This document shows positions 5,504-20,306 of a DNA stretch of 32,813 nucleotides, in pieces. Each line of letters begins with the position of its first letter. Position 1 is the first letter of the stretch. This stretch comes from an uncultured Lentisphaerota bacterium. Its GTDB lineage: Bacteria > Verrucomicrobiota > Kiritimatiellia > RFP12 > UBA1067. Made by a program: the position numbers and the translations under genes. The stretch lies in NCBI GenBank assembly GCA_900320855.1, contig ONTV01000004.1:1-32813 (forward strand), given 5' to 3'. The notes under the pieces are model-generated. The model was not told the DNA's origin. It saw nothing but the letters and a program-made list of their open reading frames with translations, and did not search any database.

Positions 5504-6601
5504 TCAGCCGTTGCGCTTCTCGAAGTCCTTCATGAAGTCGACGAGCGCCTCGACGCCCGCCAACGGGAAGGCGTTGTAGATCGACGCGCGCAGGCCGCCG
5601 ACCGAGCGATGGCCCTTGAGCGACGACATGCCGAGCTTCTTGGCCTCGTCGAGGAACAGCTTCTCCAGCGCCTCGTCGCCGCCCTTGATGCGCCACGTCA
5701 CGTTCATGTTCGAGCGGAACTCGGGCAGGGCCGTGCCCGTCCAGAAATCGCTCGAGTCGATGACATCATAGAGCTTCTTCGCCTTCTCGGCGTTGAGCTT
5801 GAAGAGGTTCTCCTTGCCCATCTTCTTCACCCACTTCATCGTCTCGCCGAAGACGTAGATGCCCCAGGTCGGCGGCGTGTTGTAGAGCGAGTCGTTGTCG
5901 ACGTAGGTGCGGTACTGGAGCATCGTCGGAATCTTCGGGCACCCCTTCTCGGCCAGTTCCTTGCGGATCGCGACGACGGCCATGCCCGACGGCCCGAGGT
6001 TCTTCTGCGCACCCGCGTAGAACAGGTCGAACTTCGTGTAGTCGCGTTCGCAGGAGAGGATGTCGGACGACATGTCGCAGATGAGCGGCCCGTTCACCTT
6101 CGGAAATTCCTTCAGTTGCGCGCCCGCGATCGTCTCGTTCGAGCAGATGTGGTAGTACGCCGCGTCATTCGACCACTTCCACTCGTCGGCGCGCGGCATG
6201 CGCGTCGGGATGTCCTTCGCGCAGTCCGCCGCGACGTTGCACTGGACGCCGTGCAGCTCCGCGACCTTCTGGCCCTCCTTCAGGGCCTTCCCCGACCAGG
6301 TTCCCTGCTTGGCGTAGTCGGCGTTCTTGCCCTGCCCGAGGAAGTTCATCGGGATCATCGCGAACTGCATCGACGCGCCGCCCTGGATGAAGCAGACGCT
6401 CCAGTCGTCATTGAGCCCGCACAGCTCCTTGAACGTCGCGATCGCCTCCTGGTGAATCGCATCGTAGTCCTTGCCGCGGTGGCTCATCTCCATCACGGAC
6501 ATGCCGCTGCCCCTGTAGTCGACGAGATCCTTCTGCACGTCCTGCAGAACGTCGAGGGGGAGAACCGCGGGACCCGCGGAGAAGTTGTAGGCTCTGGCCA
6601 T
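5504..6601 (-). CDS. serC: Phosphoserine aminotransferase
   Basis: A pyridoxal-phosphate aminotransferase that converts 3-phosphohydroxypyruvate and glutamate to phosphoserine in serine synthesis; it may also serve pyridoxine synthesis. The 365-residue protein begins RAYNFSAGPAVLP, has the GSGMSVMEMSHR substrate segment, FIQGGAS for cofactor phosphate binding and the Schiff-base lysine K200 in YAGAQKNLGPSG, with the conserved SVGGLRASIYNA near the end. The ATG at 6601 follows AAGGAAGG. It is the first gene of the serC-coaD-yceD group, with its own promoter about 90 bases upstream and a leader of roughly 75-80 bases. Confidence 0.97.
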   Translation of the reverse strand: MARAYNFSAGPAVLPLDVLQDVQKDLVDYRGSGMSVMEMSHRGKDYDAIHQEAIATFKELCGLNDDWSVCFIQGGASMQFAMIPMNFLGQGKNADYAKQGTWSGKALKEGQKVAELHGVQCNVAADCAKDIPTRMPRADEWKWSNDAAYYHICSNETIAGAQLKEFPKVNGPLICDMSSDILSCERDYTKFDLFYAGAQKNLGPSGMAVVAIRKELAEKGCPKIPTMLQYRTYVDNDSLYNTPPTWGIYVFGETMKWVKKMGKENLFKLNAEKAKKLYDVIDSSDFWTGTALPEFRSNMNVTWRIKGGDEALEKLFLDEAKKLGMSSLKGHRSVGGLRASIYNAFPLAGVEALVDFMKDFEKRNG

Positions 6602-6716: not shown

Positions 6717-7228
6717 GCGGCCCCGGCTGTCGGCGCCTGGTGGATCCGCGCGTTCGCCGCCGCGACCTTCTCCTTGAGCGTCTCCTTGTACGCCTGGAAC
6801 TTCGCGCGCAGGCCGGCGTCGGCCGTGCCCAGGATCTGGACGGCCAGCAGCGCGGCGTTCGTCGGGCCGGCGCTGCCGCAGGCGACCGTCGCGACCGGAA
6901 CGCCAGACGGCATCTGCACCGTCGCATAGAGCGCGTCCAGCCCGTTCAGCGCGCCGCCCGCGACGGGTATGCCGATGACCGGCAAGACCGTCGCCGCCGC
7001 GAGGACGCCGCCCAGGTGCGCCGCGCCGCCGGCGGCGGCGATGATGACCTTGAGGCCGCGCGCCTCCGCCGTCCGCGAATAGTCGAGCGCCACCTCCGGC
7101 GTGCGGTGCGCGCTGATGACGCGCGTCTCGTACGCGACGCCGAACGACGCCAAGGTCTCGCACGCCTTCTGCACGAGCGGCCAGTCCGAATCCGACCCCA
7201 TGACAATGCCAACGACAGGCTGTTCCAT
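6710..7228 (-). CDS. purE: N5-carboxyaminoimidazole ribonucleotide mutase
   Basis: Class I PurE moves the carboxylate of N5-CAIR to C4, giving CAIR in purine synthesis. The 172-residue protein has the signature GIVMGSDSDWP, the ISAHRTP loop with the catalytic histidine region, AAAGGAAHLGG and the PVIGIPV segment, as in PurE octamers. The ATG at 7228 follows AGGAGA; the longer frame back to 7330 overlaps the upstream DUF1080 gene and is not used. No purK is adjacent. It lies 34 bases after the DUF1080 gene and is probably co-transcribed with it. The serC promoter -35 box overlaps its stop codon. Confidence 0.95.
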   Translation of the reverse strand: MEQPVVGIVMGSDSDWPLVQKACETLASFGVAYETRVISAHRTPEVALDYSRTAEARGLKVIIAAAGGAAHLGGVLAAATVLPVIGIPVAGGALNGLDALYATVQMPSGVPVATVACGSAGPTNAALLAVQILGTADAGLRAKFQAYKETLKEKVAAANARIHQAPTAGAAC

Positions 7229-8038: not shown

Positions 8039-9730
8039 TCAGCGCGACAGGAAACGTCCGCCGCGACGCCCGGTGAAGACGCCGTTCGCGTACGGCACGA
8101 CGCCATTGACCATGACGAGCCGGACGCCGTCCGTGAACTGGTGCGGCCGCAGATAGGTCGCCTTCGCGGCAAAGGACGCTTCATCCCAGACGACCAGGTC
8201 GGCGAACGCTCCCTTCGTCAGCACGCCGCGTCCGCAAATCCCGAAACGCCGCGCCGGAACGGACGTCATGCGCGCAATCGTCTCTTCGCGCGAGACGCCA
8301 AGCGCCCGCACGCGGCGGTAGAATTCGGGCATCGTCGCGTAGGCACGCGGATGCGGATGGTCGGCCGCGAGCGGCCCCCACGGCGCTCGAAGCGAAGCGT
8401 CGCTTCCGGGCACGATCCACGGCTGCGCGAAGATCCGGTCGAGGTTCGCCTCGTTCATGCCGAAGAAAAAGGCCCCCGTCTTGCACCCGTCCTTCTCCAG
8501 AATCCGGCAGATCAGCTCGCCAGGCGTCAGGTCTGGGCGTTTGGAGGTTTGGGGGGTTGGAGGTTTGGGGGGTTGGAGGTTTGGGGGGTTGGGCGTTTGG
8601 GCGTTTGGAGGTGCGGCGGTTTGGTCGCATTCGACCATTCGACCATTCGACCATTCGATTATTTCCCTCACCGTCTTCCCGCAGAAGCGCTTGTTGTCCG
8701 CATGCCACGTGCCGCCGATCATCACCGTCGCCCAGTCGCGGTCGAGCGCATCGATCTCCCGGACGATCCGCGCGCGGAGATCGGGCGTCTGCAGCCGCAC
8801 CCTCTCCGCGACCGCCGCGCCCTCCTGCGCCCAGTCCGGCAACAGGACGTCGAGGTCTGTCCCCGCCGCGCAGTACGGATAGCGGTCGCTGCCGAGCAGG
8901 CAGCCCTCGTCCACCGCCCGACCGACCTTCTCCAGAACGGCGTCGATCTTGTGCCAGTTCTTCGGCCCGCTCGTCTTCAGATGCGAGATTTCGGCCCGGA
9001 TGCCCGTCTTCCGCGCCAGCGCAATCACCTCGTCGATTGACTCGAGGATCCGGTCGCCTTCCGAGCGCATGTGCGTCGCATAAAGTCCGCCGCGCGCGGC
9101 GGCGACTGCCGCCAGCGCCTCGACCTCCGCCGCCGTCGCGTACTTCCCCGGCTGGTAGATCAGCCCCGTCGTCAGGCCCCACCCGCCCTCGTCGAGCGCC
9201 TGTTCGAGAAGCCGCCGCATCGCGTCCAGCTCCTCCGGCGTCGCCGCACGCCCCGCATAGCCCACGACGGACGAACGGAGGGTGTTGTGCCCGACAAACT
9301 GGATGGTGTTGACGGCCGGCTTCGCGGCCGCGAGAACGTCCCGGTACTCGGCCAGCGACCGCCACGTGAGGCGATTGCCGAGAAGCGCCGCCCAGTCGCC
9401 CGAAAGCCGGGCCTCGCCATAGCGCGGCGCGACGGAGCCGCCGCACTGCCCGTTGATCTCGGTCGTAATCCCCTGCGTCACCTTCGACGGCGCGTCCGGC
9501 TCCAGGACAAGATAGGCGTCCGAGTGCGCGTGCGCATCGACGAACCCCGGCGTGACGAGAAGCCCCGTCGCATCGACCGTCTCCATGTCCGGGCACGTCC
9601 GCCCTGGCAACGACGGCGCGCGCGGCACGACATCGACGACCCGGTCGCCCGCGACGAAGACGTCGCCGACGAACGCGGGAAGCCCCGTGCCGTCGACGAT
9701 CGTCCCGTTGGCAATCCGCGTCACGCTCAT
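8039..9730 (-). CDS. N-acyl-D-amino-acid deacylase (D-aminoacylase family amidohydrolase)
   Basis: A 563-residue metal-dependent amidohydrolase of the D-aminoacylase group (COG3653), which removes acyl groups from N-acyl-D-amino acids. Ligand residues fall at positions familiar from the Alcaligenes enzyme: H67 and H69 (DAHAHSD), C96 (GQCGGS), H220 (YATHMRSE) and H250 (ISHLK); D444 in PGSDASLR is the likely catalytic aspartate. The ATG at 9730 overlaps the murG stop (ATGA). At residues about 357-399 the usual short linker after GKTVREI is replaced by a Pro/Asn/Gln/Thr-rich tract encoded by period-8 tandem repeats, after which the family sequence resumes. Being behind murG, it may salvage D-amino acids from the cell wall; that is inference. 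Confidence 0.9.
   Translation of the reverse strand: MSVTRIANGTIVDGTGLPAFVGDVFVAGDRVVDVVPRAPSLPGRTCPDMETVDATGLLVTPGFVDAHAHSDAYLVLEPDAPSKVTQGITTEINGQCGGSVAPRYGEARLSGDWAALLGNRLTWRSLAEYRDVLAAAKPAVNTIQFVGHNTLRSSVVGYAGRAATPEELDAMRRLLEQALDEGGWGLTTGLIYQPGKYATAAEVEALAAVAAARGGLYATHMRSEGDRILESIDEVIALARKTGIRAEISHLKTSGPKNWHKIDAVLEKVGRAVDEGCLLGSDRYPYCAAGTDLDVLLPDWAQEGAAVAERVRLQTPDLRARIVREIDALDRDWATVMIGGTWHADNKRFCGKTVREIIEWSNGRMVECDQTAAPPNAQTPNPPNLQPPKPPTPQTSKRPDLTPGELICRILEKDGCKTGAFFFGMNEANLDRIFAQPWIVPGSDASLRAPWGPLAADHPHPRAYATMPEFYRRVRALGVSREETIARMTSVPARRFGICGRGVLTKGAFADLVVWDEASFAAKATYLRPHQFTDGVRLVMVNGVVPYANGVFTGRRGGRFLSR
8537..8624 (-). repeat. Eleven tandem octamers (NNGTTTGG/NNGGTTGG type) inside the deacylase gene
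   Basis: On the plus strand the stretch divides exactly into 8-base units ending TTGG, apart from one unit AGGTGCGG. It includes three perfect copies of a 16-base dimer, AGGTTTGG plus GGGGTTGG (8545-8592). It encodes a Pro/Asn/Gln/Thr-rich linker. Because 8 is not a multiple of 3, gain or loss of one unit would shift the reading frame. Confidence 0.9.
8628..8659 (-). repeat. Four tandem octamers CATTCGAC inside the deacylase gene
   Basis: Three exact CATTCGAC units and a final CATTCGAT, immediately next to the TTGG octamers (3 bases apart) and with the same 8-base period but unrelated sequence. It encodes residues about 358-368. Confidence 0.9.
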
Positions 9731-19418: not shown

Positions 19419-20306
19419 TCAGGCCGACGGCTCCCGAAGCGACTTGAGAAGCGCAATCTCGTCCCGATAGCCCTGCAAGTCGCAGGGCGTCTCAAGGTAG
19501 AACGGGAGGTCGCGAAGCTTCGGATGATTCACGAGGCGCCGGAAGGCGTCCAGCCCGATCTTGCCCTTGCCGATCTTCTCGTGCCGGTCCTTGTGCGAGT
19601 CCCTGGCGTTCATCGAGTCGTTCAGATGAATCGCCTTGAGGCGCGCGAGCCCGACCGTGCGGTCGAAGGCGTCCAGCACGCCGTCAAGGTCGCCGACGAT
19701 GTCGTAGCCGCCATCCCAGACATGGCACGTGTCGAGGCAGACGCCGAAGAGAGGTTTGGCGGTTGGGAGGTTGGGAAGTTTGGCGGCTTGGGATTCGGCG
19801 GCGTCGATCAGGGTGCGGATCTCCTCGAAGCTGCGCCCCAGCTCCGAGCCTTTTCCGGCCATCGTCTCCAGGAGAATCGTCGTCTTCCAGCCCCCCGTCG
19901 GCGCAGCGGCGCAGACGTGGCGGAGCAGGTTCGCGACGTGCGCGACGCCCGCCTCGACGCCCTGGCCCACGTGCGAGCCGGGATGGAAGTTGTAGAGCGC
20001 GCCCGGCGTCGCCTCCAGCCGTTTCAGGTCATCGACGAAGACATGCGCGGCGAACTCCCGGACGCGCGCCTCGGCGCCGGCGGCATTGAGCGTGTACGGC
20101 GCATGGGCGAGGATCGGCCCGACGCCGTTCGCCGCCGCGTACGCGCGGAACGCGGCGACGTCGGCGGGGTCGATGGGCTTCGCCGCGCCGCCACGCGGAT
20201 TCCGCGTGAAGAACTGGAAGACGTTCGCGCCGATCGAGACGGCGGTCTGGGCCATGGCGAGATATCCGCCGGCCGAACTCAGGTGACAACCGATTTTCAT
20301 GCTCAT
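19419..20306 (-). CDS. nfo: Endonuclease IV (AP endonuclease)
   Basis: A 295-residue TIM-barrel enzyme that cuts DNA at abasic sites during base excision repair, using three zinc ions. Family segments are IGCHLSSAGG, NVFQFFTRNPRG, HAPYTLN, NFHPGSHVGQG, LLETMAGKGSE, GVCLDTCHVWDGGYD, HLNDSMNARDSHKDRHEKIGKG and a final LETP, giving the expected His/Asp/Glu ligands. An extra 14 or so residues (about 172-185, rich in A, L, P, N and K) separate the SFEEIRTLIDAAE helix from GVCLDTCH; they are encoded by period-8 repeats related to those in the deacylase. The start is 20306 or the second ATG at 20300. No strong ribosome binding site is seen. It follows glgB by 22 bases. Confidence 0.93.
   Translation of the reverse strand: MSMKIGCHLSSAGGYLAMAQTAVSIGANVFQFFTRNPRGGAAKPIDPADVAAFRAYAAANGVGPILAHAPYTLNAAGAEARVREFAAHVFVDDLKRLEATPGALYNFHPGSHVGQGVEAGVAHVANLLRHVCAAAPTGGWKTTILLETMAGKGSELGRSFEEIRTLIDAAESQAAKLPNLPTAKPLFGVCLDTCHVWDGGYDIVGDLDGVLDAFDRTVGLARLKAIHLNDSMNARDSHKDRHEKIGKGKIGLDAFRRLVNHPKLRDLPFYLETPCDLQGYRDEIALLKSLREPSA
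19752..19791 (-). repeat. Five tandem octamers (AGGTTTGG type) inside nfo
   Basis: On the plus strand AGGTTTGG, CGGTTGGG, AGGTTGGG, AAGTTTGG and CGGCTTGG follow without gaps. They are degenerate members of the same octamer family, in the same orientation relative to transcription, as those at 8537-8624. They encode the extra loop before GVCLDTCH. Confidence 0.75.

Follow-up and report, generated by a model that had tools for sequence, protein, structure and literature searches.

Two tandem arrays of an 8-base unit lie inside an intact bacterial gene, and the question is whether they act as an on/off switch, as an earlier note on this DNA had proposed, or are merely carried along by it. The window—the whole stretch of DNA analysed, 32,813 nucleotides in length—lies on contig 104 of genome G000, a 2.41-Mb draft of 217 contigs that is 87% complete. 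The gene (8039–9730, minus strand) is open from ATG to stop in an open reading frame check and encodes 563 residues, with the frame intact across both arrays. The product is classified as Amidohydro_3 by Pfam, and its nearest solved structures are N-acyl-D-glutamate deacylase (3gip, E=4e-68) and D-aminoacylase (1m7j, E=1e-67), whose alignments span both sides of the insert, i.e., both enzyme halves. Judged by this homology, it is a D-aminoacylase/N-acyl-D-amino acid deacylase-like amidohydrolase with N-acyl-D-amino acids as putative substrates; orthologs are present in about 30 related genomes. The repeat stretch (8529–8669) is located approximately two thirds along the gene and consists of approximately 12 degenerate octamers of the GGTTTGGG type adjoining four CATTCGAC octamers. 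The former are a family B array whose coding strand reads (CCAAACNN)n (8530–8624, minus strand), delimited by TRF and unit analysis; TRF gives a period of 8 with 11.9 copies and 73% matches, scores periods of 16 and 32 too, and the encoded stretch is rich in P/Q/T/N/K. The latter are a family A array of four units—TCGAAT hexamers joined by GG—at about 8628–8658 (minus strand), placed by TRF (CATTCGAC, 3.9 copies, 100% matches) and by an alignment of 52 A arrays. Immediately ahead of its first TCGAAT, at 8659–8669 (minus strand), stands the leader GAGGGAAATAA, which is common to most A arrays of the genome and here overlaps the ancestral codons GAA-ATC-ATC, as judged by the ortholog alignment. 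These copy numbers agree with the two kinds of period-8 repeat, eleven and four octamers at 8537–8659, that the earlier note had described. The window carries a second in-gene array, of family-B-like octamers detected by TRF (19751–19793, minus strand), in frame in the endonuclease IV gene nfo (19419–20255, minus strand, identified by TIGR00587), where it translates as SQAAKLPNLPTAKPL.

Both kinds of array are dispersed through the genome. A 401-base query around the deacylase site returns 69 matches in its own genome, nearly all of them at arrays. The genome was sampled over 771 kb of stretches, approximately a third of its length, part of the sample being chosen for holding matches and 256 kb by contig number. 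In the 771 kb, TRF detects 91 period-8 arrays versus 16 of period 7 and 23 of period 9, and Markov controls, likewise of 771 kb and run with an equal threshold, yield 0 (order 1), 1 (order 3), and 1 (order 5) period-8 arrays; the 256 kb of number-picked contigs hold 13 period-8 arrays versus 2 each for periods 6, 7, 9, and 10. The units fall mainly into three families—A, TCGAATNN; B, CCAAACNN; and C, GTGGGANN—and all three feature six conserved positions and two variable ones. The free dinucleotide is mostly GG, GA, or AA in A; CC, CT, GC, TT, TC, or AT in B; and AA or AG in C, and the two free positions have an entropy of 1.1 to 1.8 bits as against at most 0.67 at the others. The leader GRGAAATAA directly precedes the first TCGAAT in most of the 52 aligned A arrays, and four is the commonest unit count, exactly four units following 17 of 41 strict A leaders. 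Neighboring A leaders less than 400 bases apart are convergent in eight cases and divergent in one, and intergenic arrays often lie near the stop of the upstream gene, at a median of 46 bases. No terminal inverted repeats occur in single A arrays of the 52-array alignment, and the idea that A arrays form the ends of a single larger element can be rejected, since most stand alone and paired ones enclose unrelated spacers. Two intergenic repeats of L028 feature longer units: an A array at 6897–7000 whose higher-order unit is strictly 16 bases long (TCGAATGATCGAATGTT type), which indicates duplication of two units at a time, and, ahead of a gene start at 6076–6180, a repeat of approximately 16 to 20 bases (CCGAACTAAAACCCCAA type) that makes up a fourth family.

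Family A is narrowly distributed. A arrays are abundant only in G000 and, more weakly, in its two sister genomes G126 and G131: among 162 genomes of the order, three-unit matches number 163 in G000, 22 in G126, 9 in G131, 2 in G154, 1 in G016, and 0 elsewhere. The four-unit A pattern was found in none of 387 other genomes drawn phylum-wide without G126 and G131. The A leader is identical in both sisters, and G000 and G126 share one intergenic A array, which follows the same gene in both but differs in length and composition. Two arrays of G154, a member of another family of the order (C249 and C537; L156 and L157), consist of TCGAATGG without the GAAATAA leader, and their unit possibly arose independently. 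Family B is more widespread: its matches, counted in 157 genomes of the order, amount to 86 in G000 and 1 to 23 in 19 others, with species-specific dinucleotides—CA/TA in G002, G085, and G087; CT/TT/AT in G025 and G143.

The arrays could be functional DNA or RNA sites of a nucleoid, replication, or post-transcriptional factor, the copies being kept for their hexamers and merely tolerated in genes. The shared layout of six conserved and two free positions, the fixed leader with its four-unit mode, the closeness of intergenic copies to the upstream stop, and the convergent leader pairs are all consistent with such sites. Young copies of one source could give the same look, though, and in-gene copies are numerous, while B arrays between genes are randomly oriented. 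In addition, the absence of family A from nearly all congeners argues against a conserved cellular function, and we hold this reading to be unlikely. Neither plain slippage nor the neutral decay of old copies explains the conserved hexamers with their free dinucleotides; these may reflect a role at the DNA or RNA level, which weighs against mere passengers.

Plain local slippage would have each array grow in place from a chance seed, with no movement between sites. Sub-periods of 16 and 32 bases show that local duplication takes place, and the deacylase leader overlaps a pre-existing GAAATCATC that might have served as such a seed. However, the same three units and the same A leader recur at dozens of unrelated sites in few genomes, and slippage would be expected to copy all eight positions alike, the two free ones included. 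As an account of the arrays it is rather improbable. Ordinary slippage does not explain why three unrelated units should each combine a fixed hexamer with two free bases.

Many copies lie inside genes, which were called by a simple script of our own that started from the codon usage of the deacylase orthologs. Period-8 repeats occur in 32 called genes, a few (e.g., in L060 and L066) belonging to none of the families A, B, and C. Counted in sense or antisense, in-gene arrays make up 14 of 49 in family A, 17 of 31 in B, and 5 of 11 in C (31 of the 91 counted), and the host genes assigned by NCBIfam are UvrA (two sites), CarA, CarB, ThrC, ProRS (proS), MurC, KpsF, and Nfo. Within carB (L030, 6530–6570), two A leaders stand face to face within approximately 40 bases and form a perfect inverted repeat, GAGAAATAATCGAA...TTCGATTATTTCTC. 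A coding-phase test compared both sides of 79 array regions: 21 are in frame and open; one is shifted and open; three are shifted with an intervening stop, possibly as two genes; three keep the frame with a stop; and the rest have no same-strand coding sequence on both flanks. Chance would keep the frame this often with p=1e-9 (21 of 22) or p=3e-7 (21 of 25). Translational bypass of the arrays is not needed since frames are kept across them.

The orientation of B within genes is also biased. In-gene B arrays (CCAAAC) are sense to antisense in a ratio of 16:1, versus 5:8 between codirectional genes (Fisher p=0.0016), and A arrays in genes divide 8 to 6 by orientation. In sense, B encodes hydrophilic P/Q/T/K/N peptides; the opposite reading is rich in G/L/V/W/F. 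The bias would reflect selection on the product and not the insertion process. That the unit can pass through coding sequence at all follows from its length: 8 is coprime to 3, so that an array runs through every phase in 24 bases and is open or closed in all three frames of a strand together. A stop-free array can, therefore, cross a gene provided that the net length added is divisible by three. The claim that the repeat of the deacylase lacks stops in more than one frame proved understated, as all six frames are open.

The idea of a switch is that slipped-strand mispairing alters the octamer number and toggles the deacylase. The arithmetic behind it is right, namely that an 8-base unit shifts the frame unless copy number changes by multiples of three: length changes of 8 or 16 bp in the deacylase are predicted to yield frameshifted products of 395 to 521 residues with altered ends instead of 563, so that a single-unit change alters or truncates the product, and 24 bp leave the frame unchanged. 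Array length also differs between species at an intergenic site common to G000 and G126. However, the array units are degenerate, no pure run is longer than four of them, and the arrays lie mid-gene rather than at a promoter or the 5' end of a gene with surface or host-interaction function. The same arrays occur in housekeeping genes, in frame in 21 cases as against one to four that are not, and an off state would be costly in uvrA, carA, carB, thrC, proS, and murC; contingency loci are expected to show many off states. Nothing indicates that the repeat serves as a switch, and we regard a phase-variable contingency locus as very unlikely. The quadruplex that the earlier note placed on the G-rich plus strand during transcription fares no better: the signal is weak, with no G3 motif with loops of 1 to 7 and just a long-loop or two-tier motif, and the plus strand is the template of the deacylase, which makes the mRNA C-rich. 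Neither phase switching nor a quadruplex role is supported.

The deacylase site was compared by an alignment of orthologs from named records and whole genomes; the congener genomes are rumen MAGs labeled Kiritimatiellae or Verrucomicrobia. Between the motifs GGTW and TG(A/G)FFF, there are 86 residues in the window, 44 to 62 in many orthologs, and 48 and 54, respectively, in its nearest congeners, G020 and G009. The linker that the arrays had been said to replace is indeed short, but it is variable in sequence rather than conserved, and the repeats are inserted into it instead of replacing it. It is present without repeats in distant homologues—an outcome that the earlier note had itself named as bearing on its proposal—and no aligned ortholog carries the octamer arrays of the window at this loop. 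Other inserts do occur there: L089 has repeats of the CAATCAAA type, L095 a repeat resembling CCACCCAA, L091 repeats of TCCCGG, and G002/L090 a different long insert. On this alignment, the loop is a landing site used repeatedly for inserts. Two species (L094 and L100) share a nearly identical in-frame insert of approximately 110 bases at the loop, TTCACAATGCGCGATGGG...GACGCGTC, which looks like a different dispersed element. The deacylase of G126 features an in-frame A array in another, N-terminal loop (G126:C19; L167, about 1610–1645; peptide DSIIRLFDYSII). In an AlphaFold model of the window deacylase built from 16 sequences (mean pLDDT 72.8, pTM 0.77), residues 366 to 398 have a pLDDT below 50 and lie between helices 354–361 and 403–413; the repeat-encoded segment is, hence, predicted to be a disordered loop between helices. 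In other hosts, the insert is absent from the ThrC relatives examined, as are A-encoded peptides from the UvrA relatives examined, some of which have low-complexity inserts of other kinds in these loops. In congeners, the UvrA loops are filled by unrelated repeats; UvrA of G008 (L194) has a long repeat of peptide units, ASGAERNEPKARDGQTKI, in the loop that holds an octamer insert in G000.

Selection of the repeat peptide for deacylase function—flexibility, binding, or localization—would fit the presence of other inserts at this loop in several congeners and the occurrence of B in genes only in its hydrophilic readings. The same peptides are found in unrelated enzymes, however; the inserts of different species are alike in place only, and many species do without, which makes an adaptive linker highly improbable.

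We favor, with a probability of roughly three in four, the reading that the arrays of the window are copies of the dispersed octamer families A and B, which entered a short, variable surface loop after the split from known congeners and are tolerated there. They look like dispersed short-repeat DNA tolerated in permissive loops, i.e., passengers and not an on/off switch. The dispersal of units to many sites is observed. Insertion would be largely indifferent to genes. Purifying selection would then retain only frame-preserving inserts in permissive loops with a hydrophilic, disordered peptide, as the kept frame and the strand bias suggest, and array length would subsequently drift by local duplication of 8, 16, or 32 bases, as the longer sub-periods suggest.

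Searches of viral contigs and for PF00078 and PF01797 identified no machinery for this dispersal. Among the viral contigs, 0 contain the A leader with three units, 2 the four-unit A pattern, and 7 the four-unit B pattern. A reverse transcriptase (PF00078) occurs in G000 and in one of its two sisters; none was found in the second. The Y1 transposase (PF01797) occurs in 10 of 10 genomes tested, with 1 Y1_Tnp match in G000 versus 1 to 10 in genomes with and without the family. A trans-acting enzyme might write the octamers—a fixed leader, then units with six templated and two degenerate bases—somewhat like telomerase or a diversity-generating reverse transcriptase, with genes hit regularly and surviving since an octamer array that lacks stops leaves every frame open; we give this little credence. 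An assembly or binning artefact is scarcely credible: repeats frequently cause assembly errors and the draft has 217 contigs, but the frame is kept through arrays in approximately 20 genes, the same family and leader recur in two other genomes of the genus, and both flanks match one ortholog throughout, the exact copy number being uncertain. Under the dispersed-family reading, a young short-repeat family has reached approximately thirty sampled genes of one bacterium, core enzymes included, as in-frame disordered loops; the arrays would show, as a map made by nature, which loops tolerate insertion, and would exemplify how new protein segments arise from repeats.

Several known systems resemble the octamer arrays in part. 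In the open-licence papers searched, nothing was found on tandem repeats in Kiritimatiellae, and the combination of an octamer unit, a leader, three families, and many in-gene copies is unmatched. Phase-variable simple sequence repeats share a unit length not divisible by three within a coding gene, whereas the units here are degenerate, the targets housekeeping genes, and nearly all copies in frame. The TAACTGA heptamers of Beggiatoaceae, cyanobacteria, and Bacteroidetes are likewise lineage-patchy, dispersed short-unit arrays without an evident mobilizer, a few of them in ORFs; they consist of one exact unit, lie mostly just upstream of start codons, and in forward orientation contain stops in all frames and are, hence, located at ORF ends (PMC4679880). 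Borg tandem repeats also occur in and between genes, keep the frame in genes, and encode disordered peptides, but their in-gene units are perfect, have lengths divisible by three, and are nearly all unique per site (PMC9879509), whereas here one degenerate unit family of a length not divisible by three recurs at many sites.

The short tandemly repeated repetitive (STRR) sequences of cyanobacteria are related to degenerate heptamers of Xanthomonas and Nostoc, which come closest to the arrays described here. These heptamers, (GGGANTN)n and (GGGGAYT)n, respectively, form about 186 arrays with four units commonest, 7 to 11% of the Xanthomonas arrays being intragenic (PMC4692102). Both systems feature hundreds of dispersed arrays per genome, constant and free positions, a four-unit mode, inverted pairs that converge, a location of intergenic copies close to the upstream ORF, and no known mobilizer. 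They differ in that the unit here is an octamer of unrelated sequence, occurs in three families per genome, carries a fixed leader in the TCGAATNN family, and has a large in-frame share in genes. For the latter, the Rickettsia palindromic elements, palindromes of approximately 150 bases with a conserved peptide (PMC10969869), offer a parallel: they, too, insert in frame into unrelated metabolic and housekeeping genes and are translated within the protein. The octamer arrays, unlike them, have no palindromic body, vary in length, and form just the eight convergent pairs with unrelated spacers. By analogy, the octamer arrays would be a variant on the known degenerate heptamer arrays, with in-frame insertion resembling that of the Rickettsia elements.
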